DNA from: Candidatus Methylomirabilis sp. | Lineage (GTDB): Bacteria > DYJV01 | Direction: 5' to 3' | Assembly: GCA_020722945.1 (NCBI GenBank) | Contig: DYJV01000017.1 | Span: 1 to 41,122 of the forward strand | Length of the DNA: 41,122 nucleotides | Shown here: piece by piece, positions 14,426-32,598 of the stretch | How positions within the stretch are numbered: position 1 is the first letter of the stretch | How the letters are laid out: every line of letters begins with the position of its first letter | The notes under the pieces: model-generated | Seen by the model: the letters and a program-made list of their open reading frames with translations, nothing else | Database searches by the model: none | Told to the model about the DNA's origin: nothing | Position numbers and translations under genes: made by a program

Positions 14426-14427
14426 TA

Positions 14428-14925: not shown

Positions 14926-14936
14926 GCAGCCTCTCT

Positions 14937-15800
14937 TTACTTTCTTAATCTTCTAAATGCTTCGAGACTTGCTCTTCTTACATATACAGCTACAACTTTT
15001 CTCTTATGCCAATCTATGCCACGTATGTCAGTTATCGGAGAACACTCATCCTTTGCAATTTCCCCTGCTTGATATAAAATCTCCTCTGAAAAAATTTTAT
15101 CTTTAAGAAAATTTTCTGTTTTGAATGCACGTATAGGTGTGGGAGCAACTGTTGTTAATCCTATTTTTGCATCGGTTATAATCTCTCCATTTAGATTCAG
15201 ATTAACAGCAACCCCTACATTTGCCAAATCCATTGCACCTCTCTTCATAAATTTGTAGTATGCTGAAGAAGTGGTGGGAGATGGCTTTTTTATTATAATT
15301 TCGGTTAACAACTGCTCCTGATTCAGTAAAGTTTTCTTTGGCCCTATAAAAAAATCTTTAAGATCGAGAATACTCTCTTTAAGTGTATTGTCGATTATCT
15401 TAATTTTTGCCTCATATACAAGAAGTGGGGAGAGTGTGTCAGCAGCGGGTGATGCGTTGCAGATGTTACCCCCCAATGTTCCTACATTTCTTATCTGGAT
15501 TGATGCCATTCTTATAAGTGCATCGTAAAGGGCAGGAAAATTACACCTTACTATTGGAGATAACTCTATATCCCTTAGAGGTGTAGAGCTTTTGATTACG
15601 ATATTATTGCCTACATCGTAAATACCGTAGAGGTCTTTAATGTTTCTAAGAGATATAAGTGTTTTAGGAGCTATAATCCCCTTTTTCATCAGAAGAAAAA
15701 TATCTGTCCCACCGGCTATAAAAAGAGAGTTTTCAGTGTCGACTTTTTTCAAAGTCAAAGCTTCTTCTATGGTTAAAGGTTTAAAGTATCTGAATTTCAC
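14937..15800 (-). CDS. Molybdenum hydroxylase FAD-binding medium subunit
   Basis: This subunit passes electrons from the iron-sulfur subunit to an external acceptor through FAD. The 287-residue protein has the two FAD-binding signatures of the CoxM/XdhB family: AGGTDIFLLMKKG and RNVGTLGGNICNASPAAD. It lacks the cysteine-rich insert found in the paralogue at 27593-28561, so it is a plain hydroxylase-type subunit. I chose GTG at 15800, preceded by AAGGGG, over an in-frame GTG seven codons upstream that has no ribosome binding site. A 104-bp gap containing a strong hairpin separates it from the binding-protein gene upstream. Confidence 0.88.
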   Translation of the reverse strand: MKFRYFKPLTIEEALTLKKVDTENSLFIAGGTDIFLLMKKGIIAPKTLISLRNIKDLYGIYDVGNNIVIKSSTPLRDIELSPIVRCNFPALYDALIRMASIQIRNVGTLGGNICNASPAADTLSPLLVYEAKIKIIDNTLKESILDLKDFFIGPKKTLLNQEQLLTEIIIKKPSPTTSSAYYKFMKRGAMDLANVGVAVNLNLNGEIITDAKIGLTTVAPTPIRAFKTENFLKDKIFSEEILYQAGEIAKDECSPITDIRGIDWHKRKVVAVYVRRASLEAFRRLRK

Positions 15801-15851
15801 ATTAAATCCCCTTATTGGCACAATAATACTATATCAACATTTTTTTAAAGA

Positions 15852-15904: not shown

Positions 15905-17044
15905 TTATTTAACAAGCTCCCATTTGCCGTTGGCTACTTTTACAAGAACGACATCTTTAATATCAAGTCCATTGTGGTCAGTAGGTGAAAGATCGTATAT
16001 TCCACTTATCCCTATGTATCCTTTTGTATTTTCTATTGCGTCTCTCAATTTATCTTTGTCAGTTGAACCTTTGGTTTTTTCAAGAGCATCAACAACTATA
16101 TATGCAGCATCCACACCATAAGCTACCATTGTCCCTGGAGGGTTGCCAAATTTTTTAGTAAACATCTTTACAAATTCCTGAATTTTCTTCTTTTGAGGGT
16201 CATTGTCTGCTAACTGTTCAGAAACATAAACTTTAGTAGCAGGCATGATGACACCTTCTGCTGCGTCACCTGCAACTTTGAGGAATATAGGATCGCACTG
16301 ACCATGGCATTGGAAGAGGGGTTGTTTCATATCGAGTCGTTTCTTATTTTTTGCAACTATTCCACCAGCAGGACCTATTGTCCAGCATATTATTACATCA
16401 GGTTTATTCTCTTTCATCTTGACAAGTTGAGGTGTCATATCTACATCTTTTGTCCCAAAACTTTCAGAGGTAGTCATCTTTACTCCATAGTTAGCTTCAA
16501 TCTGTTTAGCAACAGTAAAACCATCTTTTCCAAAGCCATCTGCAGCATATATAAAACCGTAAGTTTTGAGCCCGTTTGCTTTCATATATTCAAATATTTT
16601 TCCGAGTGCAGATGATGACCTATATGGTGATTTGAAAACATACTTCACAGGTGGTTTGTCGATAATCACATCACTCCCTGCGTGCATAAATATAGGGACT
16701 TTCACACTGTCAATGTATGGTTTGATTGCCATTCCAGAGCCTGTGGTTGTAGGTCCAATAATTAGTGCAACCCCATCATTTTCAACTAATTTTTTTGTGT
16801 TCATCAATGTTTTGGTAGGGTCCGATTCAGTATCGTAGCCTATAAATTCTATCTTCTTGCCATTTATCCCACCTTTTGAATTTACATCTTGAAAGATAAG
16901 ATCACAAGCCTCTTTCTGTGATATTCCAATATGTGCGGCAGGTCCGGTAAGTGCAAACAACCCACCTATTTTGATCACTTCACCTGCAACAAGTGACCCT
17001 GTAAATGATAAAATAACCAGTAATGACAATAAAATTTTTTTCAT
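15905..17044 (-). CDS. Branched-chain amino acid-type (HAAT) ABC transporter substrate-binding protein
   Basis: This periplasmic receptor delivers ligand to the LivHMGF transporter. The 379-residue protein begins with a signal peptide (MKKILLSLLVILSFTGSLVAG) and continues with the Leu/Ile/Val-binding fold, seen in IKIGGLFALTGPAA, NSKGGINGKKIEFIGYDTESDP and LIIGPTTTGSG. Related proteins bind aromatic acids as well as amino acids; given its operon partners, the proposed ligand is an aromatic acid such as indole-3-acetate. The ATG at 17044 is preferred over 17056 because GGAGGGG lies just before it. Its cognate permease and ATPase genes are not adjacent but lie in the divergent operon at 29997-33348. 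Confidence 0.9.
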   Translation of the reverse strand: MKKILLSLLVILSFTGSLVAGEVIKIGGLFALTGPAAHIGISQKEACDLIFQDVNSKGGINGKKIEFIGYDTESDPTKTLMNTKKLVENDGVALIIGPTTTGSGMAIKPYIDSVKVPIFMHAGSDVIIDKPPVKYVFKSPYRSSSALGKIFEYMKANGLKTYGFIYAADGFGKDGFTVAKQIEANYGVKMTTSESFGTKDVDMTPQLVKMKENKPDVIICWTIGPAGGIVAKNKKRLDMKQPLFQCHGQCDPIFLKVAGDAAEGVIMPATKVYVSEQLADNDPQKKKIQEFVKMFTKKFGNPPGTMVAYGVDAAYIVVDALEKTKGSTDKDKLRDAIENTKGYIGISGIYDLSPTDHNGLDIKDVVLVKVANGKWELVK

Positions 17045-17097
17045 GATCCCCTCCATTGTTTTAATCTTTAGCCATAATTTTTATGACTAATAGTTTG

Positions 17098-18390
17098 TTA
17101 ATTGAATCTGTTATCAAAAACTCTTTTGGTTTTTCTCTCTGATCTTGGTAAAGCTCTATGGTCAACAATCTCAACTGCTGTTGTTACCATAATTTTTTTC
17201 TTGATTTGATCTTGTATAAACTGTGAAAGTTTATCTCTATCAATACCTTTACTAAACTCTGATTCCTCTACTTTGAGAAGCATATAATCTTTTCCATCAT
17301 TTTCCCTATTGAGATGAACTTGATATTCACTTCCTACACTTTCAATCCTTGAAAGGATAGTATCTATTTCACTTGGATATATATTTACTCCTCTAAATAT
17401 AAACATATCATCACTTCTGCCAAGTATCCTATCGTGTCTTGGCAAAAAGCAACCACACTTGCAAATACCAGGTATAATCTTTGTAATATCTCTTGAACGA
17501 TATCGGACAAGTGGTGCAGCTTCTTTGAAGAGAGTTGTATATACCATCTCACCCGTTTCACCCTCTTTGACAGGTTGCAATGTGTCAGGATCTATAATCT
17601 CTAAAATATAAAAATCTGCCCAATAGTGTATCCCATTGTGGAATTTACAATCAAGCCCTGTCCCTGGTCCATAAAGCTCTGTCAACCCCGGTATATCAAA
17701 GATATCATTTACCCCTGTCAATGAACTTATCTTTCTTATGATTGAATCACTTGTTCTTTCTGAACCGAGAATTATCTTTTTTAGGTTGATTTTATCCCGT
17801 ATCCCCCTTTTATTAATCTCTTCAGCCATCAGTAGAGCCATAGAAGCTGTGCAGCAGATAACAGTAGATTGAAAATCAATCAAAAATTCACATTGAAGAT
17901 CAAGGTTTCCCGGTCCTGTCGGTATTGACATTGCTCCAAATTTTTCACACCCTATCTGAAATCCAAAACCTGCTGTCCATACACCGTAACCTACACATAT
18001 CTGGACTCTATCCTCCTCTGTGAGGCCTGCCATTTCGTAGCATCTTGCAAACATATACAACCAGTCTTCAATATCTCTATCAGTGTAAGATAATATTTTT
18101 CTCTTACCTGTTGTCCCGCTTGAGGCATGAATCCTAATAATATCTCTAAAATCAACACTCTTTAGAGGGAATGGATATTCATCTCTCAAATCTTGAGCAG
18201 TTGTAAATGGAAGTTTTACAATGTCATTAAGAGTCTTTATATCATCAGGTTTGACCCCTGCTTCATTGAATTTTCTGTTGTAAAAACTTGAGTTGTTGTA
18301 AGCATGAGTGACTGTCCATTTTAATCTTTCGAGCTGTAATTTTTTAAGCTCCTCAATATTTTTTACCTTAGGCGGAAATTTTTGAAGCAT
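17098..18390 (-). CDS. PaaK-type aryl-CoA ligase (AMP-forming)
   Basis: This adenylate-forming enzyme activates an aryl-carboxylic acid to its CoA thioester with ATP. The 430 residues match phenylacetate-CoA ligase length. Visible motifs are the phosphate loop IHASSGTTGKRK, the YGVWTAGFGFQ segment, the adenine-region motif GLTELYGPG and the hinge region HDRILGRSDDMFIFRGVNIYPSEI, followed by the small C-terminal domain typical of PaaK. In Aromatoleum, IaaB is an indoleacetate-CoA ligase of this family in the iaa operon; the same role, or activation of (2-aminophenyl)succinate, is inferred here. The substrate is not proven. Good AAGGAG upstream of the ATG. Confidence 0.85.
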   Translation of the reverse strand: MLQKFPPKVKNIEELKKLQLERLKWTVTHAYNNSSFYNRKFNEAGVKPDDIKTLNDIVKLPFTTAQDLRDEYPFPLKSVDFRDIIRIHASSGTTGKRKILSYTDRDIEDWLYMFARCYEMAGLTEEDRVQICVGYGVWTAGFGFQIGCEKFGAMSIPTGPGNLDLQCEFLIDFQSTVICCTASMALLMAEEINKRGIRDKINLKKIILGSERTSDSIIRKISSLTGVNDIFDIPGLTELYGPGTGLDCKFHNGIHYWADFYILEIIDPDTLQPVKEGETGEMVYTTLFKEAAPLVRYRSRDITKIIPGICKCGCFLPRHDRILGRSDDMFIFRGVNIYPSEIDTILSRIESVGSEYQVHLNRENDGKDYMLLKVEESEFSKGIDRDKLSQFIQDQIKKKIMVTTAVEIVDHRALPRSERKTKRVFDNRFN

Positions 18391-18418: not shown

Positions 18419-20137
18419 TTATTTAAATTTTTCTCTCTTTGAAATCTGTGTAAAAGTATCGGGGTCAATTACTACACCGTAGTCACTCTCTGCTTTTTCT
18501 ATTGAAATTACTTGGTTTTGGACATCTCTTAATAATTTATCTACTTCCCGTTCAAGAGGATTTCCGTAACCACCGCCGCCACCTGCTTCCTGATAGTAGA
18601 TGGTGCCTTTTTTTATATTGTCTATCATATCTTTGGTGGTTGTCCTATAAATTCTTCCGTCAGGGTAAATCAGCTCTATTTTGTTTAGTGTCCCCTCTTT
18701 CCCTCCGTGAGAACCGAAAGCAGGTTCAATATCTCCATCACCAAATGTAACAAGTTTTGTATTGTCACTACCTATTATAAATTTTGTTTTTACTCCGAGA
18801 CCACCTCTCCATCTACCCGCACCTGCTGAATCTTCCCAATATTCGTGCTGGAGTAAAAGATGTGGTGTCTGCTGTTCAAACATTTCATAATCTTGATCCA
18901 AAACTCCGCCAGAAGCATCAATCATACCTATATGGTCATAACCATCACAACCCATGATAGCACCAGAGCCGCCTTTTAATCCCATAAAGCATATATCAAC
19001 ATAAGACTCATTTTTTTTCGGATTGATTCCTGTTGTAAGAGAGCATAAAAGCTCATTCCACTCTGCTGTTACTCTATCAGGGATAGCTTGAGACAAAGCT
19101 CTCATAATTGCATCAGCATTGTTAGGGCAGAGATGATTCCCATAAGTTGTTGCCGCAGGGTATTTTGCATTAAGTATTGTCCCCTCAGGGATAATGATCT
19201 CAATAGGTCTTATCATCCCCTGATTGTGGGGGATGTCGGGGCTGACCATTTGAAGAAAAGTAAGGATAGTAGCTGATGCGCTTGAAGTGAATGTTCCATT
19301 TACAAAGCCTGGGGTTTGCAGATCTGTGCCACTATAATCAAAAATTATCTTCTCATCTTCAACAGTAATAGTCACCCGTATTTTATATTTTGAATTGGGA
19401 ATTTTACCATCATAAAAAACGTTGCTTTCACCTTTATAAATTCCGTTGGGGATACTTTTTATCTCTGATTTCATCATCTTTTCAGTAGAATCAAATAGGT
19501 AATTTTTGTGTGCTTCAAAAACCTCTACTCCATATCTTTCGATTATATCGAGAAATCTTCTCTCACCCACAACACAGCTGCCAATTTCAGCTTTCATATC
19601 CTCTGCAACAATAGGTAGTCTTATATTTGCAAAGATAAGGTTCCATACATCTTTTCTAAGTTTTCCCTTCTCATACACTTTTACAGGTGGTATCCTAAGG
19701 GCTTCCTGCCAAACTTCAGTTGCCGCAGGATTGTATCCACCCTGCACAGCACCACCGATATCTGCCTGATGCCCTTTACATGCAGACCAGCCTACAAGCT
19801 CATCTTTGTAAAAGATAGGTTTGTATACTGCAACATCGTTGTTTTGGTTGCCAAATGAAAAAACATCGTTGTGAAAGATAACATCACCTGGGTATATTTC
19901 GCTACCAAAATAATTTATTATATATTTGCAGACAGGTGCCAAAGAGAATGCAAGTATTGGCAGATTTTCTGTTTGCTCAAGCATGTTCCCCTCTCTATCG
20001 TAAAGACCTGTCACAAAATCTTTTGCTTCACAAAGGATAGGGGATCTTGTTGTTTTTTCAAGAGCAATGCTCATCTCATCTGTGATAGCTTTTAATCTCC
20101 GTCTTAATATTGAAACAAGAACTTTATCTATATTCAT
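18419..20137 (-). CDS. HyuB-family subunit of ATP-dependent amide/lactam hydrolase (IaaC/IaaE-like)
   Basis: The hydantoinase B/oxoprolinase/acetone carboxylase alpha family partners with HyuA proteins to hydrolyse cyclic amides using ATP, or to carboxylate ketones. The 572-residue protein has the family hallmarks DVIFHNDVFSFGNQNNDVAV, WSACKGHQADIGG and the C-terminal glycine-rich block ending YYQEAGGGGGYGNPLER. It begins 14 bases after the HyuA gene. Acetone carboxylases need a third, small gamma subunit, which is absent here, arguing for hydrolysis. In the Iaa pathway IaaCE opens the 2-oxoindole-3-acetate lactam to (2-aminophenyl)succinate; that function is inferred from the gene set. A general N-methylhydantoinase or oxoprolinase role is the alternative. 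Confidence 0.82.
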   Translation of the reverse strand: MNIDKVLVSILRRRLKAITDEMSIALEKTTRSPILCEAKDFVTGLYDREGNMLEQTENLPILAFSLAPVCKYIINYFGSEIYPGDVIFHNDVFSFGNQNNDVAVYKPIFYKDELVGWSACKGHQADIGGAVQGGYNPAATEVWQEALRIPPVKVYEKGKLRKDVWNLIFANIRLPIVAEDMKAEIGSCVVGERRFLDIIERYGVEVFEAHKNYLFDSTEKMMKSEIKSIPNGIYKGESNVFYDGKIPNSKYKIRVTITVEDEKIIFDYSGTDLQTPGFVNGTFTSSASATILTFLQMVSPDIPHNQGMIRPIEIIIPEGTILNAKYPAATTYGNHLCPNNADAIMRALSQAIPDRVTAEWNELLCSLTTGINPKKNESYVDICFMGLKGGSGAIMGCDGYDHIGMIDASGGVLDQDYEMFEQQTPHLLLQHEYWEDSAGAGRWRGGLGVKTKFIIGSDNTKLVTFGDGDIEPAFGSHGGKEGTLNKIELIYPDGRIYRTTTKDMIDNIKKGTIYYQEAGGGGGYGNPLEREVDKLLRDVQNQVISIEKAESDYGVVIDPDTFTQISKREKFK

Positions 20138-20151
20138 TTACCCTCCCTATC

Positions 20152-22263
20152 TCAATTTTGGATAACTCTTGATAAAACTTTATCTTCAATCTCTTTTAGA
20201 TAAACAGTGTAACTTCCAAATTTATCAACTATCACTGAAAATTCAGGTGTAATAAAAGCCGTGGTATTGGTCTGCTCCAAGATAGCAGGACCTGATACTC
20301 TGTTCCCATATTTTAGTTGAAGAGAATCAAAAACATCTACCTCTTCAAATCTCTTTTTTGAAGGGATAAAGACATCTCTTCTTTTTTTGAAAGCTTTATC
20401 GGGAAGCTCCCCGTCATACTCCATAACAGGAAAATTAGGTTTGACTGTTTTCCCGATAACTTTTAATCTTAAATTTATAAGTTCGATAGGAGTCCGCTCA
20501 TTTTCGAGTGAGTAACCGAAAAGAGTGTTATGTGCAGGGTGAAATTTCTTTGCAATTAAATCCCAGTTACAATCGATTATATCTTTTTCAGGTATTTCGA
20601 CACTGACTTCATGATACTGTCTTGAATATCTTAAATCGAGTGAATATACAAACTCTATTTTGTTGGTATCTCTGATACCTTCGCTCTTTAATGTTTTTAT
20701 CCCTGTGCTCTTCATCTCTTCAAAATATTTTTTGAAAATTTTCTTATCAATATTTTCAAGATTAGAGATATAGCTCCTTACATAATCGTGTTCAAGGTCT
20801 GAAATGAGCATCCCTGCGGCACAGAAAATGGATGATTCCCTTGGTATAATAAGTATTGGTATGTCAAGCTCCATTGCTATCATACATGCATGATTGGGAC
20901 CTGCTCCACCAGCAACTATCATTGGGAGATCTCTTGGATCCACCCCTTCACTGACTGCGATCTCTCTGACTGCTGCTGCCATATTTACATTGATAATGTT
21001 ATACATACCTGCTGAAGCTTCGTAAAGTCCAAATTTGAGTGGTTTCGCTATTTTTTTTTCTATTGCTTTTGAAGCTTTATCTTTGTCAAGTTTCATCTTT
21101 CCACCTGCAAAGAAATCTGGGTCTAAATATCCGAGCACAATATCGGCATCTGTGCATGTAGGCTCTTCACCACCAAGTGAATAGCAGACAGGTCCAGGTT
21201 TGGAACCTGCACTTTGAGGTCCCATTCGTAAAAGACCACCCTCATCTATCCAACCGATGCTCCCACCGCCAGCACCGATAGTTACAACATTGAGCATTGG
21301 GAGTGCTGTTCGAAGTCTGTTGATATAACCACTTGTTGTAACAGTAGGTTTGCCATTTTTTACAACAGCAGTATCAAAACTTGTGCCACCCATATCTGTA
21401 GTTATAAAACTATCGTAACCTTGTGGTTTTACATAAATAGTGCCTGCTACTGGTCCACCAGCAGGGCCAGACAGTAGTGTGGATGCAGATTTTGATATTG
21501 CACTTTCAGGTGAAACTACTCCACCATTTGATGTCATTATCAGTAGAGTCCCTTTAAAATTCTCTTTTTCTAACCTCTTCATAAGTGATGTTAGGTATCT
21601 TTTTAAAATAGGTCCAACATAAGAGTTGAGAGATGTTGTGCTGACTCTATCGTAAAATCTGACAGATGGAAGAAGTTCAAAAGATACTGTTAGATAAATA
21701 TCCTCAAAATCTCTCTTTACAATTTTTGCTACTTCATTTTCATGGATTGGGTTTGCAAATGAATTCATAAAGCATATTGCAATTGCTTCAACTTTTTCTT
21801 TTTTTAGTTTATCTATTTGGGATTGAAGATTTGATTTGTCAAGTGGAGTTACGATTTCACCTACGGAGTTGATACGCTCTTTTACAGGAAGCCTGAGGTA
21901 TCTTTCTACAACAGGTTTTGCATTTTCATATCTGTTGTTATACTGCTCCTCCCTTACCCCTCTTCTCATCTCAAGTGCATCCCTGACCCCCTCTGTGGTA
22001 AGTAGTGCGGTTTTTGCACCATTGTAGGTAAGTATAGCATTTGTGGTGACAGTTGTCCCATGAACTATTGTTGAGACTTTTTGGAGGAAATCTCTTAATG
22101 ATAGCCCATGTGCATCAGCCATCTCTTTTAATCCTTTCATTGTTGCAATTGAAGGGTCATCTGGAGTTGATAAAACTTTATATATTTCAGTGGAGCCATC
22201 ATCAGATGTAAGTAGAAAATCTGTGAATGTTCCACCAACATCGATACCTATTTTGTAATTCAT
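20152..22263 (-). CDS. HyuA-family ATP-binding subunit of amide/lactam hydrolase (IaaC/IaaE-like)
   Basis: This is the ATP-using partner of the HyuB-type protein. The 703-residue chain starts with a hydantoinase A N-terminal ASKHA-fold phosphate motif, IGIDVGGTFTDFLL, and has a second, TDMGGTSFDTAVV, near residue 290, then GAGGGSIGWIDEGG and AGGAGPNHACMIA. The C-terminal domain of about 200 residues matches the hydantoinase A family. These motifs support phosphorylation of a lactam oxygen during ring opening, as in 5-oxoprolinase and caprolactamase. It follows the mutase genes and precedes HyuB, so mutase, hydrolase and ligase are co-expressed. Which of IaaC and IaaE corresponds to this subunit I cannot say. 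Confidence 0.82.
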   Translation of the reverse strand: MNYKIGIDVGGTFTDFLLTSDDGSTEIYKVLSTPDDPSIATMKGLKEMADAHGLSLRDFLQKVSTIVHGTTVTTNAILTYNGAKTALLTTEGVRDALEMRRGVREEQYNNRYENAKPVVERYLRLPVKERINSVGEIVTPLDKSNLQSQIDKLKKEKVEAIAICFMNSFANPIHENEVAKIVKRDFEDIYLTVSFELLPSVRFYDRVSTTSLNSYVGPILKRYLTSLMKRLEKENFKGTLLIMTSNGGVVSPESAISKSASTLLSGPAGGPVAGTIYVKPQGYDSFITTDMGGTSFDTAVVKNGKPTVTTSGYINRLRTALPMLNVVTIGAGGGSIGWIDEGGLLRMGPQSAGSKPGPVCYSLGGEEPTCTDADIVLGYLDPDFFAGGKMKLDKDKASKAIEKKIAKPLKFGLYEASAGMYNIINVNMAAAVREIAVSEGVDPRDLPMIVAGGAGPNHACMIAMELDIPILIIPRESSIFCAAGMLISDLEHDYVRSYISNLENIDKKIFKKYFEEMKSTGIKTLKSEGIRDTNKIEFVYSLDLRYSRQYHEVSVEIPEKDIIDCNWDLIAKKFHPAHNTLFGYSLENERTPIELINLRLKVIGKTVKPNFPVMEYDGELPDKAFKKRRDVFIPSKKRFEEVDVFDSLQLKYGNRVSGPAILEQTNTTAFITPEFSVIVDKFGSYTVYLKEIEDKVLSRVIQN

Positions 22264-22299: not shown

Positions 22300-23940
22300 T
22301 TAACCAAAAATATTAGGTTCTTCAAAAACTCCATATACCTCTCTAAACACATCTGCCATCTCTCCAACTGTGGCATAAGATTTACAGCATTCAACAAGTG
22401 AAGGCATAACATTTTGACCATTTAAAGCAGTTTTTTTAAGTGTATCAATAGAAGATTTTACTCTTCTGTTGTCTCTTGTTCTTTTTAATTTTTTTAACTC
22501 CTCTATCTTTTTTTTTGCAGATTCTTCGTCATATTCGTGGAGTTTTACCTCCTGTTTATTTTCATCCATAATGTATCTGTTTACACCAACTTTTATATAT
22601 TTGCCATCTTCAAGACCTTTTTGATAATCGTATGCTTGAAGTGCAATTTTCCTCTGAACAAACCCATCCTCAACAGCTTTAAGCATCCCACCATAATTAT
22701 CTATCTCTGCAATCTCTTTCTCTATAAGAGATTCCATCTCCTTTGTGATACTTTCAATAAAGTAGGACCCCGCAAGAGGATCCACAGTGTCTCTCAAGCC
22801 GACCTCGTCCATAAGCATCTGTAGAGTTCTTAGTGAGATTAGTGCAGATTCTTCAGTGGGGATAGTATAGGCTTCATCGTATGAGCATAAAGCTGTAGTC
22901 TGTGCTCCACCAAGTGCTGCTGCAAGACCGTAGTATGCACCTCTTACGATGTTGTTCATAGGTTGCTCTTTAGTTAGGCCTGAACCGCCACCACCAAATA
23001 GACCACGGAAGAAGAGAACTTTACTGTCTTTTTTACCTGCACCATATCTGTTTTTTAAATTCTTTGCCCATATCTTCCGTGCTGCTCTTAATTTTGCAAC
23101 TGTCTCCCAGATATTGCCGTAGATATTTATGTTAAACGAGAAACTTCCGACAAAATCATCAATATCAAGACCCCTCTTTAAAACCTCATCTATATAGGTA
23201 TTGGCAATCTGAATTGCGTAAGCTATCTCTTGTGCAGGGGTAGCACCAGATTCTCTAATATGGTAGCCGCATATACTCACAGGGTTACATTTGGGAAGCT
23301 CTTTGACAGAGTATTCGATGGTGTCTCCGATAAGTTTTACACCATGTCGGGGTGGGTAGATCCAAGCTCCTCTGCCGATTATCTCTTTTAAGATGTCGTT
23401 TTGAGGAGTTGCACTTATGACATTTTTTGAGTATCCATATCTCTCTGCAACTGCCTGATACATTGCAAGCATTATTGAGGCAACAGCATTTATTGTGAGT
23501 CCAGAACCTATTTTTTCAAGAGGTATATCTTTAAATGCTATTTCAAAATCGAGTAGAGTATCAACAGCCATTCCAACTCTTCCCACTTCACCTTCAGCTT
23601 CAGGAGAATCGGAATCGTATCCCATTTGAGTGGGTAGATCAAATGCAACATTTAAACCATTCTGTCCATTTGCTATTAATAATTTGAATCTTTCATTTGT
23701 CTGAGCAGGTGTCCCAAAACCTGAATATTGTCTCATTGTCCAACCTCTGCTCCTATAACCGAGAGGATGAATCCCTCTTGTAAAAGGGTAGTCCCCCGGG
23801 TCACTGAGGTCTTTATCGTAACTAAAATCTAATTTTGCAAGGTCGTCAGGGGTGTAAAGAGGTTTTACTTTAATACCTGAAAGATACTCAACTTCTACTA
23901 TCTTATCTTTTTTATCTTTTATATATTTTGCTACACCCAT
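22300..23940 (-). CDS. B12-dependent acyl-CoA mutase large subunit (IaaG/H-like, carboxylate-type)
   Basis: This catalytic TIM-barrel subunit performs radical carbon-skeleton rearrangement of a CoA ester. The 546-residue protein matches split methylmalonyl-CoA mutase large subunits. Tyr72 (in RQYSGF) and Arg190 (ten residues after Gln180 in PQNDILKE) align with Tyr89 and Arg207 of Propionibacterium methylmalonyl-CoA mutase, which bind the substrate carboxylate. Isobutyryl-CoA mutase has Phe and Gln there, and 2-hydroxyisobutyryl-CoA mutase has Ile plus an Asp where this protein has Ala99. His227 lies in the conserved GYH motif. The region FFRGLFGGGGSGLT replaces the usual SQTSGWSLT, suggesting a remodelled pocket. 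With its neighbours, (2-aminophenyl)succinyl-CoA to (2-aminobenzyl)malonyl-CoA is the best-fitting reaction; methylmalonyl-CoA mutase is the alternative. Confidence 0.82.
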   Translation of the reverse strand: MGVAKYIKDKKDKIVEVEYLSGIKVKPLYTPDDLAKLDFSYDKDLSDPGDYPFTRGIHPLGYRSRGWTMRQYSGFGTPAQTNERFKLLIANGQNGLNVAFDLPTQMGYDSDSPEAEGEVGRVGMAVDTLLDFEIAFKDIPLEKIGSGLTINAVASIMLAMYQAVAERYGYSKNVISATPQNDILKEIIGRGAWIYPPRHGVKLIGDTIEYSVKELPKCNPVSICGYHIRESGATPAQEIAYAIQIANTYIDEVLKRGLDIDDFVGSFSFNINIYGNIWETVAKLRAARKIWAKNLKNRYGAGKKDSKVLFFRGLFGGGGSGLTKEQPMNNIVRGAYYGLAAALGGAQTTALCSYDEAYTIPTEESALISLRTLQMLMDEVGLRDTVDPLAGSYFIESITKEMESLIEKEIAEIDNYGGMLKAVEDGFVQRKIALQAYDYQKGLEDGKYIKVGVNRYIMDENKQEVKLHEYDEESAKKKIEELKKLKRTRDNRRVKSSIDTLKKTALNGQNVMPSLVECCKSYATVGEMADVFREVYGVFEEPNIFG

Positions 23941-23959: not shown

Positions 23960-24361
23960 TTATAACTTTGAATTGAGAGTATTATTTAAGAAGGATAAAG
24001 TTTTTTTTAGAGGGGTTCCACCCGGAAAAACGCCTTTAACTCCAATTTTTTTCAGTAATTCTATATCTTTATCAGGAATTACTCCACCTACAAAAACAAC
24101 TATGTCATCTGCTTTATTCTCCCTTAATTTCTCGATAATTTTGGTAGAGTAGTATAGGTGAGCACCTGATAATATTGAGAGACCTAAGGCATCAACATCT
24201 TCTTGTATTGCTGTAATAACTATTTGGTCAATAGATTTGTGGAGACCTGAATATATAACCTCAAATCCTGATTCTCTCAAAGCATGGGCAACTATCTTTG
24301 CTCCTTTATCGTGACCATCAAGACCCGGCTTTGCAATTAAGATTCTAAAATGTTTATTCAT
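23960..24361 (-). CDS. B12-binding small subunit of acyl-CoA mutase
   Basis: This 133-residue protein is a stand-alone cobalamin-binding Rossmann domain that supplies adenosylcobalamin to the large subunit. The base-off signature LDGHDKG (His17 as the lower axial ligand), the nucleotide-loop motif LSILSGAH, and VGGVIP followed by GVFPGGTP are all present. The size matches HcmB, IcmB and other split-mutase small subunits. It precedes the large subunit by 19 bp in transcription order. No MeaB/ArgK-type G-protein chaperone gene is next to it, although most split mutases need one. Confidence 0.92.
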   Translation of the reverse strand: MNKHFRILIAKPGLDGHDKGAKIVAHALRESGFEVIYSGLHKSIDQIVITAIQEDVDALGLSILSGAHLYYSTKIIEKLRENKADDIVVFVGGVIPDKDIELLKKIGVKGVFPGGTPLKKTLSFLNNTLNSKL

Positions 24362-24387: not shown

Positions 24388-24816
24388 TTAAGATTTACTC
24401 TTTTTAATATTAAACTCACCATCGCATATTTCAGTGAGCACCCCACACATTTCATCTGGATAATTTATGAATGAATACCTGTTGCCAAAAAGTTCTCTCG
24501 GTTTTTCATCAATCAGTTTATAACCTTTATCTTTTAGCTCTTTGATCTTAGATGGGACATTATCTACACCGTAAGATATTAAGAAAACACCTTCACCCCT
24601 TTTATTTATAAACTTTGCAACTTCACCATCAGGGGTAGTTGATTCCATGAGCTCTATTGCAACTTCTCCAAGGTAGTATCTTGCAACTTTTATCTTTTCA
24701 CTTTCAGCTATGTATTCGGAGTGAAGCTCCAATCCAAGCACATCTTGATAAATTTTCTTCCCTTTTTCGAGATCTTTGACTGCTATACAGATATGATCTA
24801 TTTTTTTTGTTTTCAT
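24388..24816 (-). CDS. Methylmalonyl-CoA epimerase-like VOC protein, metal site altered
   Basis: The VOC-fold protein (142 residues) resembles methylmalonyl-CoA epimerase, with the two repeated betaalphabetabetabeta units (IDHICIAVKDLEKGKKIYQDVLG and the C-terminal half). His8 and Glu129 (in CGVLTEIC) match two epimerase metal or acid-base positions. The usual GLHHIA motif, which carries a metal-binding His, is replaced by GVFLIS (Phe78 and Leu79), so the standard Co/Mn site is incomplete. It sits directly upstream of the mutase small subunit, where an epimerase would set the stereochemistry at C2 of an arylsuccinyl- or arylmalonyl-CoA. Activity as an epimerase is therefore plausible from context but not from residues. 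Confidence 0.72.
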   Translation of the reverse strand: MKTKKIDHICIAVKDLEKGKKIYQDVLGLELHSEYIAESEKIKVARYYLGEVAIELMESTTPDGEVAKFINKRGEGVFLISYGVDNVPSKIKELKDKGYKLIDEKPRELFGNRYSFINYPDEMCGVLTEICDGEFNIKKSKS

Positions 24817-24831
24817 GACCCCTCTTAATTT

Positions 24832-27105
24832 TTATCTATTTTTTTGAGTAATTTCTTTTAAAACTTTGTCAGGTGTTATGGGAAAATCTTTTATCCATAC
24901 ACCTATTGCATCAAAAACAGCGTTACCTACTGCCTGAAAACCGTTCATTGAACCGAAAAGTCCTGCTTCCTTTGCTCCAAAAGGACCTTTAGGATCATTG
25001 GTAATTACTACATCAGCATAAATTTTGTCAGGGACATCGAGAGATGTAGGTATTTTGTATTCGAGGAAATCGGGATTTAACATCTGACCATTGTCCCATA
25101 AATGTTCTTCAAGAATTGTAGATACACCACCAGAAGCAACAGAACCTTCATACTGCCCCTCAACTCCCTTTCTATTGATAGGGTATCCACAATCTTGGAA
25201 ACCTGTTGCCTCGACAATATTGACATTGCCGGTATATCGGTCAATTTTCACCTCCATTATATTTGCACCAAAACTGAAAGTTGTTGCCTGTTGACCAATA
25301 GGATTTTTGACCCACTCTCTGTCGTTGGATACTTCAGGCATATAATGCCCCCTCCCCATAATATGTCTATCTTCTATCAACCCTTTCCTCACAACAGCAT
25401 GAAGTGGGAGTTTAAGGGCTGGATCCTTTTTTGAAAAAACAACTTTATCACTTATATCAAGCTCTTTAGTGCTGCATTTGAGGATCTCTGATGCAAGTTT
25501 TACTATCTGTTTTCTTGCATCTTCACACGCTTTTTTGACAGCATTCCCACCTACAAGGACAGCTGCTTGAGAGTATGCTCCAACATCAAGAGTTGTAACT
25601 TCTGTATCAGCAGCAACAATATGTATCTCATCTGTGGGGACTCCAAGCACTTCTGATGCTATTTGAACCATAGCATGGTAGTTCCCTTGTCCATTATCAA
25701 CAACACCTGTAATTATAGTAGGGTAGCCATCTTCATTAAACTTTACAAAACAGCTTGAACCACCCCTTATCCCCATAGGGAATCCACACATCATACCATT
25801 TGCACCCATTCCAATGCCTTGGTATGCTGGGAGTTTACCCCTTTTGGAACCCCATTTGGATTTTTTTGAAGCTCTTTTTATGGCATCAGATAAACCACAG
25901 CTAAAAATTTTTGACTTAGTTGCCTGATATTCACCTTTTTTAAGTGCGTTTCTCAATCTTATCTCAACAGGATCGATATTGAGCTTATTTGCTATCATAT
26001 CAAGCTGCATACCTAATCCTCCCAAAAATGCTCTTCCATGGCAACGATACATACCTCGTATCGGTTTGTTGGTGTAAACCCGATAACTATTGAGTCTGAC
26101 ATTTGGAAGTCTGTATGTCTCCTCCCATACAAGAAATGGAACAGATGCAGCTATTGGTCCTGTGCTTGAATATCCCCCACCATCCATGATAACTTTTATA
26201 TCTTGAGCTATTATCTCTCCATCTTTACTGACTCCAGTCTTTACATTCATAACCATATCGTGGACTTGTCTTGTGCAAGTCATGCTCTCTTCCCTTGAAT
26301 ACACTATCTTTACAGCTCTTTTTGATTTTATAGAAAGGAGAGATGTTATAAAATCGAGAGGGAATATATCTGATCTCCCCCCAAAAGCTCCACCAATTGC
26401 TGGGCGACGGACAATAACTTTATTGAGCGGCATATGAAGAAGATTAGATAGAGCTTTTGCTTTTGTATGTGGAGATGCATTAGGTATCCACAATTCAAGT
26501 ATTCCATCACTTCTGTAATTAGCAACTACGGCATAATTTTCAAGCATACCGTAAGTTTCTCCATTTGAGGTGAATCTCTCCTCACTGACAAGATAAGATT
26601 CAGCAAAACCTTTTTCCACATTGCCAACTTCGATCTTAACATGAATATTTATGTTGTTTTTGAAATCGTTGTGAATTAATGGTGCTCCATCTTTGATAGA
26701 CTCCTCTGCGTCAAATATTGCAGGTAGTGGCTGATAGTCAACTTTTATAAGATTAATGGCTTCAATAGCTGTCTCCTCATCAATAGCAGCAACAGCGGCA
26801 ACTTCCTCCCCTATAAATCTGACCTTATCTGATGCGATTAACTGGTGATCTCGTGTATATTTGAATACTCCCCACTTCTCCCCAAATGTATCATCTCTTG
26901 TAACAACAGCTTTCACTCCGGGTAATTTTTCTGCTTTTGATGTGTCTATATTTTTTATGATAGCGTGAGGATAAGGGGAGTGTAATACTTTGCCTACAAG
27001 CATTTTAGGTATTTTGATGTCAGCAGTGTATAGAGCCTCTCCTGTTGCCTTTTGTGGTGTATCTATACGAGGTATACTTTTCCCGATTATTTTGTATTTT
27101 GGCAT
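24832..27105 (-). CDS. Molybdenum enzyme large subunit, 4-hydroxybenzoyl-CoA reductase alpha-like
   Basis: This Mo-binding subunit of the xanthine oxidase superfamily is 757 residues, the size of HcrA. Pterin motifs are present: IGGAFGGRSD, IRGMYRCHGRAFLGGLG, GVVDNGQGNYHAMVQ and GPFGAKEAGLFG. The final motif is unusual: where hydroxylases, including the paralogue at 12050-14425, have the essential Glu (GIGEIG), this protein has Leu716 (EAGLFG). Its partner FAD subunit carries the [4Fe-4S] insert diagnostic for 4-hydroxybenzoyl-CoA reductase, so a low-potential reductive reaction or an unusual oxidation is possible. The gene follows the small subunit by 24 bp with GGAGG before the ATG. The substrate is unknown; an aryl-CoA ester or indole derivative is likely from context. 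Confidence 0.8.
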   Translation of the reverse strand: MPKYKIIGKSIPRIDTPQKATGEALYTADIKIPKMLVGKVLHSPYPHAIIKNIDTSKAEKLPGVKAVVTRDDTFGEKWGVFKYTRDHQLIASDKVRFIGEEVAAVAAIDEETAIEAINLIKVDYQPLPAIFDAEESIKDGAPLIHNDFKNNINIHVKIEVGNVEKGFAESYLVSEERFTSNGETYGMLENYAVVANYRSDGILELWIPNASPHTKAKALSNLLHMPLNKVIVRRPAIGGAFGGRSDIFPLDFITSLLSIKSKRAVKIVYSREESMTCTRQVHDMVMNVKTGVSKDGEIIAQDIKVIMDGGGYSSTGPIAASVPFLVWEETYRLPNVRLNSYRVYTNKPIRGMYRCHGRAFLGGLGMQLDMIANKLNIDPVEIRLRNALKKGEYQATKSKIFSCGLSDAIKRASKKSKWGSKRGKLPAYQGIGMGANGMMCGFPMGIRGGSSCFVKFNEDGYPTIITGVVDNGQGNYHAMVQIASEVLGVPTDEIHIVAADTEVTTLDVGAYSQAAVLVGGNAVKKACEDARKQIVKLASEILKCSTKELDISDKVVFSKKDPALKLPLHAVVRKGLIEDRHIMGRGHYMPEVSNDREWVKNPIGQQATTFSFGANIMEVKIDRYTGNVNIVEATGFQDCGYPINRKGVEGQYEGSVASGGVSTILEEHLWDNGQMLNPDFLEYKIPTSLDVPDKIYADVVITNDPKGPFGAKEAGLFGSMNGFQAVGNAVFDAIGVWIKDFPITPDKVLKEITQKNR

Positions 27106-27129
27106 TATATCCTCCAGAATCTTGAAAAG

Positions 27130-27600
27130 TTAGGACAATTTTGAAGCTTCTTCAATTGCGTCAGTTATCTTGATGTAGCCAGTGCACCTGCATATATTCC
27201 CTGAAATAGCTTCTCTTATCTCATTGCGGGATAGTTTACTTCTTTTCTGTTCTATAAGTGAAAGCCCTGTAAGTATCATTCCTGATGAGCAGAATCCACA
27301 TTGAATTGCATGATTTCTGATAAATGATTCTTGTATTGGGTGAAGTTTACCATCAACGGCAACACCCTCTATAGTTCTTATCTTTTTATGCTCTACCTCA
27401 ACAGCAAGTATGAGGCATGCTCTCATAGGCAGACCGTCAATGAGGACAGTGCATGCTCCACAACTTCCATCGTCACAACCCTCCTTTGCACCAGTAAGAT
27501 CAAGCCTATTTCTTAAGACATCAAGCAACGTTTCGTTGGGGAAAATCTCTAATTCATAAATATCGTTGTTGATATTTAGATATATCTTCCTCTTATCCAT
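27130..27600 (-). CDS. Molybdenum enzyme [2Fe-2S] small subunit, HcrC-like
   Basis: The 156-residue protein carries two [2Fe-2S] clusters. First-cluster ligands are Cys42, Cys47, Cys50 and Cys62 (GCDDGSCGAC). Second-cluster motifs are CGFCSSGM (Cys101, Cys104) and CRCTGY (Cys137, Cys139). The size is close to HcrC of 4-hydroxybenzoyl-CoA reductase. I start at ATG 27600 (MDKRKIYLN); the longer in-frame extension to 27687 lies wholly inside the upstream FAD-subunit gene. The ATG overlaps the FAD-subunit stop codon region (ATGGATAA), so the two are translationally coupled. Confidence 0.92.
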   Translation of the reverse strand: MDKRKIYLNINNDIYELEIFPNETLLDVLRNRLDLTGAKEGCDDGSCGACTVLIDGLPMRACLILAVEVEHKKIRTIEGVAVDGKLHPIQESFIRNHAIQCGFCSSGMILTGLSLIEQKRSKLSRNEIREAISGNICRCTGYIKITDAIEEASKLS

Positions 27601-28561
27601 TTGTAACTCCAAAATTATCGATGATTTTTTGAAATAAAGTTGTAGATAGTAATTTTCTATGCTCTGGAGTAGAGGGCATATTGGCAATAGGTTTTGGTTG
27701 TTTCTCTATGATTGAGGTGATTTTACCTAATCTATCTTTTGAAAAATTGGTTATATCTATTGTAATAGGTTGTGAATCAACTGCATTTAAGACTATCCTC
27801 ATATTTGAAGGATTATCCTTGCTATAACCTACGGCAACTCCTGAAAGTGGGTAGTCTATAGAATTTCTCAATCTAAATTTTTCGTAAAATGATATTTTGG
27901 TTGAAATATTTTTGAGGATCAGTTGTGTAACTACTTCGTTTGTTTTTAGGATATTAGGTTTTGTGCCATCTCCTGTATAAAAATCTTTAAGTGGAATTGT
28001 TCTAAAAGTTTCTCCATTAAATATTTCGAGCTCAGCATCAACTGAAATTAGCATTGGTGGGAGATCAGCACTAAATACCGCAAAGCATTTTTTGGAACCG
28101 GGCAAGGCATTGCATACATTGCCACCCAGCTTGTAGCAAGGTTTACGGCTGCTTCTCCAATTTGCAGATTGGTTGTAGTATAGACATCTTGTATCAAGAG
28201 AGATATTCCCACCGATAGTTGCTCTGTTTTGTAAAGGTGGAGCGGCAATAAGTTTCCCTGCTATTGCAAGAGATGGGAATACTTTTTTTATAATCGGAGA
28301 GTTAATTATTTCAGAAATAGTGGTCAAAGAGCCTATCAAAAGGGTATCACTCTCTTTTTTATAATTGATAAATCTCATCTCATCAATTTTTGAAAGAGAT
28401 ACAAGGAGATCTAAATTTGGATATAAACTTTTTTTTATGTTGGGAATAATCTGTGTGCCGCCTGCAGAGTATAAATATCTACTACTGTTTTTTAGAAGAA
28501 AGAATGAAAGCTCTGAGATAGTGAGAGGAATGACTACATCAAACTTTGATGGTAATCCCAT
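27593..28561 (-). CDS. FAD subunit with [4Fe-4S] insert, 4-hydroxybenzoyl-CoA reductase beta-like
   Basis: The medium subunit has the FAD motifs SAGGTQIIPNIKK and RATIGGNISLDTRC. After the second motif it carries a cysteine-rich insert with Cys126, Cys142, Cys150 and Cys159. The spacing is identical to Cys122, 138, 146 and 155, which bind the extra [4Fe-4S] cluster in Thauera aromatica 4-hydroxybenzoyl-CoA reductase. The flanking residues CLYYNQS and NWR are also HcrB-like. In that enzyme the cluster lets low-potential ferredoxin electrons drive reductive dehydroxylation. It is the first gene of the leftward operon. ATG 28561 has AGGGGG upstream and is preferred over an in-frame TTG five codons earlier. 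The length, 322 residues, matches HcrB. Confidence 0.85.
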   Translation of the reverse strand: MGLPSKFDVVIPLTISELSFFLLKNSSRYLYSAGGTQIIPNIKKSLYPNLDLLVSLSKIDEMRFINYKKESDTLLIGSLTTISEIINSPIIKKVFPSLAIAGKLIAAPPLQNRATIGGNISLDTRCLYYNQSANWRSSRKPCYKLGGNVCNALPGSKKCFAVFSADLPPMLISVDAELEIFNGETFRTIPLKDFYTGDGTKPNILKTNEVVTQLILKNISTKISFYEKFRLRNSIDYPLSGVAVGYSKDNPSNMRIVLNAVDSQPITIDITNFSKDRLGKITSIIEKQPKPIANMPSTPEHRKLLSTTLFQKIIDNFGVTNG

Positions 28562-28581
28562 AATGCCCCCTGCCAAAGAAA

Positions 28582-28778: not shown

Positions 28779-29975
28779 ATGGAGACTTCCCATTTATTTT
28801 CAAAGGTTACAGTTCTTGCATTGGAGCAGGCTATAGTGGTTCCTTACTTTACCTACAAGATGGTTATAGATGGAGCAAATGTTATAAGATTGGAACACCC
28901 TATAAATCACGACCCAAATAGATTAGTTGGTGATAGAGTGATTGACGAAGATAAGATGAATAGCTATTTTCTCACTATTAACAGTGGCAAAAAGTGTGTT
29001 ACCCTAAACCTTAAATCTAAAAAGGGGCAGGCTCTTTTATACGATATGATCAAATCTCTCGATGTAGATATTTTTATAACCAACCAATTACCTAAAAATT
29101 ACGATACTCTTGGTATAAGTTATGACAAGATCTCATCAGTAAAAGAAGATATTATCTGGGTTGGTGTTACAGGTTTTGGCAAAGATAGCAATGAGGGAGC
29201 ATACGACCCAATACTTCAAGCAAGAGCTGCTCTTATGGATCTCACAGGTGAAGCGTCTGGTGACCCTCAGGTTATAGGTATTCCACTACCCGATATGGGA
29301 AGCAGTGAGCAAATTTATGGACTTGTGATGAAAGCTCTTTTTAAAAAAGCTGTTACCTCCAAAGGTAGCAGGATAGATTTTTCAATGTTCAGAAGTAGTG
29401 TGAGTTGGCATGCTATTAATATCCCGATGGTCTCTTCATTCAACAAAAAGATTACAAGAAGGGGTAATACTCACGAATTTTTTGCACCTGTATCTGTCTA
29501 CAAAACAAAAGATTCCTACATTTATATTGCTATTGGAAACAATCGGCAATGGGAAGATTTTTCCAAACTTCAAACATTCTCCTCTCTTGATATTCCAGAT
29601 TATAAGCTTAATGAAGGTAGGATAAAAGATGTTACTAATCTTAACAACAAAATCAACAAAATCACCTCTTCACTTTACACTGATGAGCTTCTGCAAATGT
29701 TAAAAGAGATAACTGTCCCTTCATCTAAGATAAACTCTCTTGAAGATCTATTGTCAGACCCCCATTTGGATAATAAATTCCTAAAAAGTATCGATAAAGA
29801 TAAAAATTTAGAGATCAAATTATCTCCACCTGCTTACGATACAGATTTTATAAATGATTCAAGGACTTTATCTTTTCCGCCAAGATTAGGTGAGCATAAT
29901 ATCGAGATATACAGAGATATCCTCAAAATATCAGATGACCAACTTTTACAATTAAAAAATGAAGGGGTGATATGA
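28779..29975 (+). CDS. iaaL: Class III (family III) CoA-transferase, IaaL-like
   Basis: Family III CoA-transferases move CoA between carboxylic acids through an aspartyl-CoA anhydride. The 398-residue protein has the fold's N-terminal LALEQAIVVPYFTYKMVIDGANVIRLEHP pattern and the catalytic Asp172 in IGIPLPDMGSSEQIYG. Length is typical. IaaL of Aromatoleum is a phenylsuccinyl-CoA transferase of this class in auxin degradation; by gene context this enzyme would activate (2-aminophenyl)succinate. Substrate assignment is inference, and a general aryl-acid CoA-transferase is the alternative. It is the first gene of the rightward operon, with AGAGG before the ATG and a strong regulated promoter upstream. 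Confidence 0.72.
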   Translation: METSHLFSKVTVLALEQAIVVPYFTYKMVIDGANVIRLEHPINHDPNRLVGDRVIDEDKMNSYFLTINSGKKCVTLNLKSKKGQALLYDMIKSLDVDIFITNQLPKNYDTLGISYDKISSVKEDIIWVGVTGFGKDSNEGAYDPILQARAALMDLTGEASGDPQVIGIPLPDMGSSEQIYGLVMKALFKKAVTSKGSRIDFSMFRSSVSWHAINIPMVSSFNKKITRRGNTHEFFAPVSVYKTKDSYIYIAIGNNRQWEDFSKLQTFSSLDIPDYKLNEGRIKDVTNLNNKINKITSSLYTDELLQMLKEITVPSSKINSLEDLLSDPHLDNKFLKSIDKDKNLEIKLSPPAYDTDFINDSRTLSFPPRLGEHNIEIYRDILKISDDQLLQLKNEGVI

Positions 29976-29996
29976 CACCCTCTTTTGAGGATTAAG

Positions 29997-30872
29997 ATGG
30001 AGAATATATTACAATTTATAATTTCAGGGATTACAACAGGGAGTATATATGCTTTGATAGCATTAGGATTCTCTGTTATTAACAATTCAACCGGCATTGT
30101 CAATATACTTCAATGTGAGTTTATAACTTATGGCGGGATGCTCACAGTTACATTTTATCTCTTCTCAAAATTTCCACTTCCGTTGGCAATAATATTTTCA
30201 GTTATAGTTGTTGCAATTTTTGCAGGTCTTTTTGAACGTTTAATAATAAGAAATTCAAAATCAAAAGATATTATGCTTCTGATATTCATAACCATTGGAG
30301 CTTCGATATTCTTTAAAGGGCTTGCTCTTCTTATTTGGGGTTCAGACCCTTTTACTATACCATCTTTCTCTGGTGAGCAGATTATAAAATTTTTGGGGGC
30401 TGTGATTATTCCGCAAAATTTATGGATATTAGGTATTACTTTTGTTACCGTAACTCTTTTACATCTTTTCTTTAAAAATACAATTACAGGAAAAGCTATG
30501 AGAGCTGTCTCTATCAATAAAAAAGCAGCAGAGATTGTTGGGATAAATATCAATAAGATGATATTCTTGTCATTTGTAATAAGTGGATTTCTTGGTTCAA
30601 TTGCAGGCATAATAATAGCACCTATCACTACCACTTCCTACGATATAGGATTTATGCTTGGGCTAAAAGGTTTTGCTGCTGCTATACTTGGTGGTTATGG
30701 TAGTATGGCAGGTTCTGTTGTCGGTGGTTTGCTTCTTGGAATCCTTGAAAGCATAGGTGCAGGTGAAATTTCCTCAACTTACAAAGATGTAATTGCTTTT
30801 GTTGTTCTTATCCTCATCCTTTTTATTAAACCAACAGGTATTTTAGGCAGCAGATATGTTGACAAAGTTTAA
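29997..30872 (+). CDS. livH: HAAT-family ABC transporter permease LivH
   Basis: LivH-type inner-membrane permease of a branched-chain amino acid-like importer. The 291-residue protein is strongly hydrophobic, with about eight membrane segments and the family motifs TTGSIYALIALGFSVINNSTGIVN near the start and LKGFAAAILGGYGSMAGSVVGGLLLGILE near the cytoplasmic coupling region. ATG 29997 has TGAGGAT upstream; the earlier in-frame TTG overlaps that ribosome binding site. It belongs to the rightward operon and probably works with the binding protein encoded at 15905-17044. Confidence 0.9.
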   Translation: MENILQFIISGITTGSIYALIALGFSVINNSTGIVNILQCEFITYGGMLTVTFYLFSKFPLPLAIIFSVIVVAIFAGLFERLIIRNSKSKDIMLLIFITIGASIFFKGLALLIWGSDPFTIPSFSGEQIIKFLGAVIIPQNLWILGITFVTVTLLHLFFKNTITGKAMRAVSINKKAAEIVGININKMIFLSFVISGFLGSIAGIIIAPITTTSYDIGFMLGLKGFAAAILGGYGSMAGSVVGGLLLGILESIGAGEISSTYKDVIAFVVLILILFIKPTGILGSRYVDKV

Positions 30873-31794
30873 AGATAATTTTCTTTACCAACTAATTTTT
30901 ACTATTATCGTGTCCTTTATCCTCTATATCTGTATAAAGAGTAACTATCTAATATTGGTAATGAATATTATAGGTTTAAATGCAATTATAGTCATAGGTA
31001 TCAATCTCCTCGTAGGTTATGCAGGTCAAATTTCACTTGGACATGCAGCTTTTTACGGTATAGGGGCATATAGTTCAACTATTCTTACCACAACTTACAG
31101 TTTTAATCCATGGCTTGCTCTCATACTTGCCGCAATTATCACTGCTGTTTCTGCTTTTATTATAGGGAAACCATCTCTCAAATTAAAGGGGCACTATCTT
31201 GTTATGGCAACACTTGGTTTTAATATGATTGTCTCTATTATTCTTGTTCAATGGGAAGAGTTTACAGGTGGACCTTCAGGGATACCGGGAATACCGTATC
31301 TTAAAATAGGTGATTTTGTGTTTAATTCAGATAAAAAGTTTTTTATACTTATTTTGATATTTTTAATCTTATCATTAATTACTGCTCACAATCTTGTTAA
31401 TTCAAGAGTTGGACGGGGGATACGCTCTTTACATAGTAGTGAAATTGCAGCCGCATCATTGGGTATAGATGTAAGTGAGTATAAAATAAAAATTTTTGTT
31501 TTGAGTGCTGTTCTTGCAAGTATCTCAGGGAGTTTGTATGCTCACTACTTTACTTTTATAAGTCCCAAATCTTTTGATATAATTTTTTCAATAAAAATTA
31601 TTATAATGTCTATCTTTGGTGGGATATCCACTATCTGGGGAGCATTGATAGGTAGTGCAGTATTGACAATACTTGGAGAAGTGCTAACAATTATTGAAGA
31701 TTTCTCCACTATTACATTAGGGTTGATACTGATATTTACACTTATGTTTATTCCTGAAGGTGTTGTAGGTTACATAAAAAAAAGGATAAAATAG
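30856..31794 (+). CDS. livM: HAAT-family ABC transporter permease LivM
   Basis: Second permease of the Liv-type importer, 312 residues, multi-spanning. Family motifs include NLLVGYAGQISLGHAAFYGIGAY and the coupling segment FGGISTIWGALIGSAVLTIL. The start overlaps livH by 17 bp, indicating coupled translation. The length lacks any fused ATPase domain, as is normal. Confidence 0.9.
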   Translation: MLTKFKDNFLYQLIFTIIVSFILYICIKSNYLILVMNIIGLNAIIVIGINLLVGYAGQISLGHAAFYGIGAYSSTILTTTYSFNPWLALILAAIITAVSAFIIGKPSLKLKGHYLVMATLGFNMIVSIILVQWEEFTGGPSGIPGIPYLKIGDFVFNSDKKFFILILIFLILSLITAHNLVNSRVGRGIRSLHSSEIAAASLGIDVSEYKIKIFVLSAVLASISGSLYAHYFTFISPKSFDIIFSIKIIIMSIFGGISTIWGALIGSAVLTILGEVLTIIEDFSTITLGLILIFTLMFIPEGVVGYIKKRIK

Positions 31795-31818
31795 TATTTA
31801 AAATAAAGGATTATTAGA

Positions 31819-32595: not shown

Positions 32596-32598
32596 ACT

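Follow-up and report, generated by a model that had tools for sequence, protein, structure and literature searches.

A probable IaaG-type mutase large subunit with a clade-wide glycine-rich segment encoded in an iaa-type gene cluster

We analysed a contig of 41,122 nucleotides from Candidatus Methylomirabilis sp. (DYJV01000017.1; the whole stretch is hereafter called the window), in which an acyl-CoA mutase gene lies within a complete iaa-type set of genes comprising a PaaK-like ligase, a lactamase, two molybdenum enzymes, a CoA-transferase, a B12-binding subunit and an acyl-CoA dehydrogenase with a GGG motif (Table 1). On the minus strand, in the order of transcription, these are the 4-hydroxybenzoyl-CoA-reductase-like enzyme, a VOC protein, the B12-binding subunit, the mutase, the lactamase alpha and beta subunits, the ligase, a periplasmic binding protein, and the other molybdenum enzyme, a hydroxylase; the divergently transcribed genes on the plus strand encode the family III CoA-transferase, a Liv-type transporter, the acyl-CoA dehydrogenase and a GntR regulator. 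With the start set at the first TTG, the LivF and dehydrogenase open reading frames overlap at 33242-33348, and the true start of the dehydrogenase probably lies further downstream. Near the end of the cluster, we read a hybrid sensor kinase gene (8618-11530) with a periplasmic-binding-protein-like sensor part, which could sense the pathway substrate.

Table 1. Genes and sequence features of the mutase locus, with coordinates in the window.
Feature	Coordinates	Strand	Remarks
Molybdenum hydroxylase, three subunits	12050..15821	-	Type occurring in the compared iaa clusters
Branched-chain-amino-acid-type periplasmic binding protein	15905..17056	-	Profile searches
PaaK-type arylacetate-CoA ligase (IaaB-like role)	17098..18390	-	397 bits, below equivalog cut-offs
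ATP-dependent lactamase/hydantoinase beta (HyuB, IaaE-like)	18419..20137	-	Profile searches
ATP-dependent lactamase/hydantoinase alpha (HyuA, IaaC-like)	20152..22263	-	Profile searches
IaaG-type mutase large subunit (substrate-binding, TIM-barrel)	22300..23940	-	546 aa, open ORF
ALCSYDEA, residues 350-357	22870..22893	-	Replaces HTNSxDEA; no deletion
Glycine-rich segment FFRGLFGGGGSGLT, residues 310-323	22972..23013	-	Replaces R-x-H-x-Q-T-(S/A)-G of MCM/ICM
Arg190 codon (P. shermanii MCM Arg207)	23371..23373	-	Arg in 84/84 listed clade members
Tyr72 codon (P. shermanii MCM Tyr89)	23725..23727	-	Tyr in 84/84 listed clade members
IaaH-type B12-binding small subunit	23960..24361	-	TIGR00640, 145.7 bits, cut-off 57.45
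VOC protein, methylmalonyl-CoA epimerase-related	24388..24816	-	TIGR03081, 97.7 bits, below cut-off 114.95
Second molybdenum enzyme, 4-hydroxybenzoyl-CoA-reductase-like, three subunits	24832..28576	-	Four-Cys insert in FAD subunit
Family III CoA-transferase (IaaL-like role)	28779..29975	+	Adjoins IaaG in many loci
LivHMGF-type ABC transporter	29985..33348	+	Sequence reading
Acyl-CoA dehydrogenase, GGG for YEG, IaaF-like	33242..34474	+	Motif definition from PMC8360864
GntR-family regulator	34482..35135	+	Sequence reading; adjoins IaaG in most relatives

In profile searches, the mutase matched Pfam MM_CoA_mutase (PF01642) with 590 bits and TIGR00641 with 564 bits (cut-off 304), and the small subunit carries the DxHxxG motif in the form DGHDKG. 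The two genes, encoding an MM_CoA_mutase-type large subunit and a separate B12-binding subunit, have the layout of IaaGH. An AlphaFold model of the mutase, built with 20 relatives (pTM 0.84), has the overall fold of 2-hydroxyisobutyryl-CoA mutase (HCM) and methylmalonyl-CoA mutase (MCM), with Z of about 40 and with pLDDT below 50 at residues 317-322 and 353-362, that is, in both segments of interest described below. The closest solved structure by sequence and by fold is HCM (HcmAB, 4r3u; 41% identity in the Foldseek alignment, Z 40.2), which shares the two-subunit layout. MCM (P. shermanii 1req/4req, human 2xij/2xiq, M. tuberculosis 6oxc) shares the fold along with Tyr89/Arg207, Gln197, His244 and Asp369/Glu370. 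The fused isobutyryl-CoA mutase IcmF (4xc6, 5cjw) has the mutase fold as well, at about 26% identity in the Foldseek alignment, but differs by its fused G-protein and B12 domains.

Searching 386 genomes yielded four relatives closer to the window mutase than any MCM, and a scan of the species-genome collection added at least 80 loci with 63-81% identity, the best 80 coming mostly from metagenome bins of Desulfobacterota-like type; the named sources include NaphS2 and Desulfocarbo indianensis. The plasmid collection returned only mutases less than 60% identical to the window mutase, the best listed at about 45-47%. When placed in a tree together with MCM, HCM and further mutases, the proteins with the glycine-rich segment formed one group of 84, a lower bound (at least 84), the real clade being larger; the group of 83 without the most divergent row (L034) had support of 1.0, and the node adding that row had 0.41. 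A related protein from another genome (L007), sister to the clade, shares the glycine segment in a different, unrelated gene setting, which was uninformative; in the residue tally this divergent row was counted with the glycine type, replacing one clade member, whereas the signature comparison used the monophyletic 84.

The sequence-only reading of this DNA had equated Tyr72 and Arg190 with the carboxylate-binding pair of MCM and, on this ground, excluded isobutyryl- or 2-hydroxyisobutyryl-type specificity, and both points hold. The two residues aligned exactly to Tyr89 and Arg207 of P. shermanii MCM, which we take to be the pair that binds the carboxylate. At these positions, by contrast, HCM has Ile and Gln, and the HCM/ICM-type mutases in the alignment have Ile or Phe and Gln. 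That the window protein is a 2-hydroxyisobutyryl- or isobutyryl-CoA-type mutase, as the proximity of HCM in sequence and fold might suggest, is therefore extremely improbable, given Tyr and Arg at both specificity positions. Gln180 and His227, presumably the thioester-holding residues (Gln197 and His244 of MCM), are likewise maintained, Gln197 in 84/84 listed clade members and His244 in 83 rows counted.

The strongly divergent glycine-rich segment, the next element of that reading, is present as quoted: within FFRGLFGGGGSGLT, RGLFGGGGSGLT stands where P. shermanii MCM has RTHSQTSGWSLT, and LFGG where HCM has HCQT. The divergence is clade-wide rather than a chance feature of one protein, with the glycine segment found at positions 330-333 in 84/84 listed clade members (80 GGGG, 4 AGGG) and in 0/17 MCM-type and 0/14 Gln207-type mutases. 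Characterised close relatives sharing the segment had been named as grounds against the proposal; the closest solved relatives, HCM and MCM, are without it. The supposed one-residue shortening before DEA, however, proved incorrect: the stretch 326-371 is ungapped and 46 residues long in every row, both in the 84 relatives and in the 32 comparison mutases, and the window protein does not differ here from HCM or from the P. shermanii and human MCM. Thus, one of the three arguments initially advanced for a bulky dicarboxylic substrate, the deletion, is false.

Comparison of the 84 clade members with 17 MCM-type (Tyr/Arg) and 14 Gln207-type mutases identified 25 positions that are fixed differently in the clade, among them S114N, L152A, S164G, S241C, F287N, Q330G, T331G, A332G, V356A, H364A, T365L and N366C (P. 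shermanii numbering). These class-specific changes, absent from the methylmalonyl-, isobutyryl- and 2-hydroxyisobutyryl-type mutases compared, are concentrated at the barrel-strand ends, with 8 of the 25 positions on barrel strands assigned by DSSP in the model (Fisher p = 4e-5). If 312-319 and 349/352, homologous stretches without an assigned strand in the model, are also counted, the number rises to 12 of 25 (p = 4e-8), but the former value is the fairer one because these stretches were picked after the data had been seen. Summed over the strand-end positions considered, side-chain volume is about 257 cubic angstroms smaller in the clade, which agrees with an enlarged cavity without demonstrating one. 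To judge from the substitutions, the glycine segment may contribute to a larger pocket, and the set of residues common to the 84 relatives suggests a fit for a bulky aromatic acid.

The same differences bear on whether the protein might be an ordinary MCM serving propionate or succinate metabolism, its glycine segment being the product of neutral drift. The Tyr/Arg pair, the separate B12 subunit and the adjoining epimerase-like VOC gene are all MCM-like. Compared with MCM, however, the window mutase lacks His328-x-Gln330-Thr331 and His364-Thr365-Asn366, and has Asn in place of Phe287, with about 25 fixed class differences altogether; every or almost every MCM- and ICM-type row retains His328, Gln330, Thr331 and Asn366, and the changes are uniform among the 84 relatives. 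No linkage of the mutase to an acyl-CoA carboxylase of the propionate pathway was seen in the window. Moreover, the genome itself (2.5 Mb, 184 contigs) encodes two further mutases, one of the MCM type with Tyr/Arg (C10) and one of the ICM type with Phe/Gln (C56), and the former adjoins its own B12 subunit and genes that read as epimerase-like and carboxyltransferase-like. The ordinary MCM role thus appears to be already filled by the separate MCM-type mutase, and we consider drift from an ordinary MCM very unlikely.

Anaerobic breakdown of the plant hormone indoleacetate by microbes is a known, little studied route. IaaF catalyses the oxidative decarboxylation of benzylmalonyl-CoA, and IaaGH is the mutase preceding it in the pathway; all IaaF orthologues carry GGG and are encoded in iaa clusters (PMC8360864, Schuhle et al.). 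Close to the C-terminus, the window dehydrogenase reads LLFGGGTSEI, its GGG taking the place of the YEG found in most of the family, and it is predicted to be a decarboxylating benzylmalonyl-CoA dehydrogenase; the molybdenum hydroxylase is the predicted 2-hydroxylase of indoleacetate or indoleacetyl-CoA. GGG is also found in the dehydrogenases adjoining the mutase in relatives (AGG in one row), the exceptions listed being ordinary YEG dehydrogenases with about 30% identity. NaphS2 and D. indianensis, both published IaaF carriers (PMC8360864), each encode one mutase of the window clade, adjoining a GGG dehydrogenase. This dehydrogenase context, the clade shared with published iaa genomes, and the substitutions at the barrel-strand ends together make a bulky dicarboxylic substrate of the arylsuccinyl-CoA/benzylmalonyl-CoA type, as originally proposed, the best-supported reading. 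We conclude that the mutase is, with high probability, IaaG, the large subunit of (2-aminophenyl)succinyl-CoA/(2-aminobenzyl)malonyl-CoA mutase.

Like the window, the IaaGH systems of Aromatoleum aromaticum and of the predicted operons in NaphS2, Desulfocarbo and Ferroglobus have separate large and small subunits, and their operons include IaaF (GGG), a CoA-transferase, a ligase, an ATP-dependent lactamase and a molybdenum hydroxylase. Compared with these operons, the window adds the VOC epimerase-like gene and the 4-hydroxybenzoyl-CoA-reductase-like enzyme, whereas no ETF or MeaB gene was seen in its cluster. The link to the A. aromaticum operon runs via gene context and relatives. In the literature consulted, IaaGH has an assigned reaction, and we found no assay or structure of it.

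Among the relatives, two clusters (L032 and L033) have the order lactamase, dehydrogenase, B12 subunit, mutase, CoA-transferase and molybdenum hydroxylase, with genes reading as indolepyruvate oxidoreductase in the upstream part. A Desulfobacula cluster (L066) contains pyruvate/indolepyruvate-family oxidoreductase genes together with EtfB and MeaB, in line with the ETF genes described for strict anaerobes (PMC8360864). Two kinds of lactamase (HyuAB) occur beside the window mutase clade, 60-82% and about 30-36% identical to that of the window, respectively (L035-L114), and therefore the members of the clade need not all share one substrate. The two kinds are scattered over the mutase tree. Given these lactamases and the 4-hydroxybenzoyl-CoA-reductase-like enzyme of the window, the exact substrate across the clade is less certain than the class of the mutase. 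An enzyme acting on another bulky succinyl-CoA, such as an alkyl- or (hydroxyaryl)succinyl-CoA, in a cluster for an aromatic lactam or arylacetate other than indoleacetate, would accommodate the two lactamase kinds with one mutase clade, the reductase-like enzyme, which was not seen in the L032 and L033 clusters, and the glycine segment of the sister protein in its unrelated setting. We nevertheless regard such an enzyme as unlikely, because the IaaF-type GGG dehydrogenase with the ligase, lactamase, molybdenum hydroxylase and CoA-transferase makes up the published iaa set, and because indolepyruvate-oxidoreductase-type genes occur in the clusters of relatives and one is present in the genome studied here (IorA, 613 bits, just under the cut-off of 651).

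Under the IaaG assignment, the mutase and IaaH, encoded just upstream, would form an adenosylcobalamin-dependent enzyme interconverting (2-aminophenyl)succinyl-CoA and (2-aminobenzyl)malonyl-CoA, the pair that the pathway implies. By analogy with family chemistry, the free carboxylate would be held by Tyr72 and Arg190, as in MCM, and the thioester by the conserved Gln180 and His227, while homolysis of adenosylcobalamin would yield the 5'-deoxyadenosyl radical, followed by hydrogen abstraction and a 1,2-shift of the CoA-thioester group. The side-chain volume lost at the barrel-strand ends through F287N, S164G, Q330G, T331G and H364A may provide space for the aryl group. In the next step, the GGG dehydrogenase would remove CO2 and two electrons, giving 2-aminocinnamoyl-CoA.

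Elsewhere, the genome encodes BamA, scoring above the curated cut-off, together with a relative of BamB whose match to benzoyl-CoA reductase 4z3w reaches 987 bits; degradation of the ring via the class II benzoyl-CoA route is thus likely. The second molybdenum enzyme of the window has its best match to 1rm6 (409 bits), being most like Thauera 4-hydroxybenzoyl-CoA reductase. For its homologues in Desulfatiglans anilini, deamination of 4-aminobenzoyl-CoA has been suggested (PMC7500099), and a candidate deaminating role for the window enzyme would suit 2-aminobenzoyl-CoA. The VOC protein is a possible arylsuccinyl-/benzylmalonyl-CoA epimerase. An extended pathway, in which the VOC protein would epimerise arylsuccinyl-/benzylmalonyl-CoA and the reductase-like enzyme would reductively deaminate 2-aminobenzoyl-CoA to feed the class II benzoyl-CoA pathway, is a tentative proposal that we hold to be somewhat doubtful. 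The reductase-like enzyme recurs near IaaG in six loci (L035, L036, L095, L098, L101 and L113).

The signature of the clade, with Tyr/Arg kept and S114N, S164G, F287N, GGGG at 330-333 and Cys at 366, distinguishes benzylmalonyl-type mutases from methylmalonyl-CoA mutases, the annotation that they would otherwise tend to receive, and opens the pocket of the former to mutational testing. It parallels the GGG motif of IaaF, which its authors propose to provide room for a benzylmalonyl-type substrate (PMC8360864).

One further mutase, on contig C374 of genome G033 (L150, 5859-7661), is sister to the IaaG group. It has the Tyr/Arg pair and a GGGG segment, with Gly-Pro-His for Gly-Tyr-His; no B12 subunit was seen beside it on this contig, and its genome contains 19 mutase matches.
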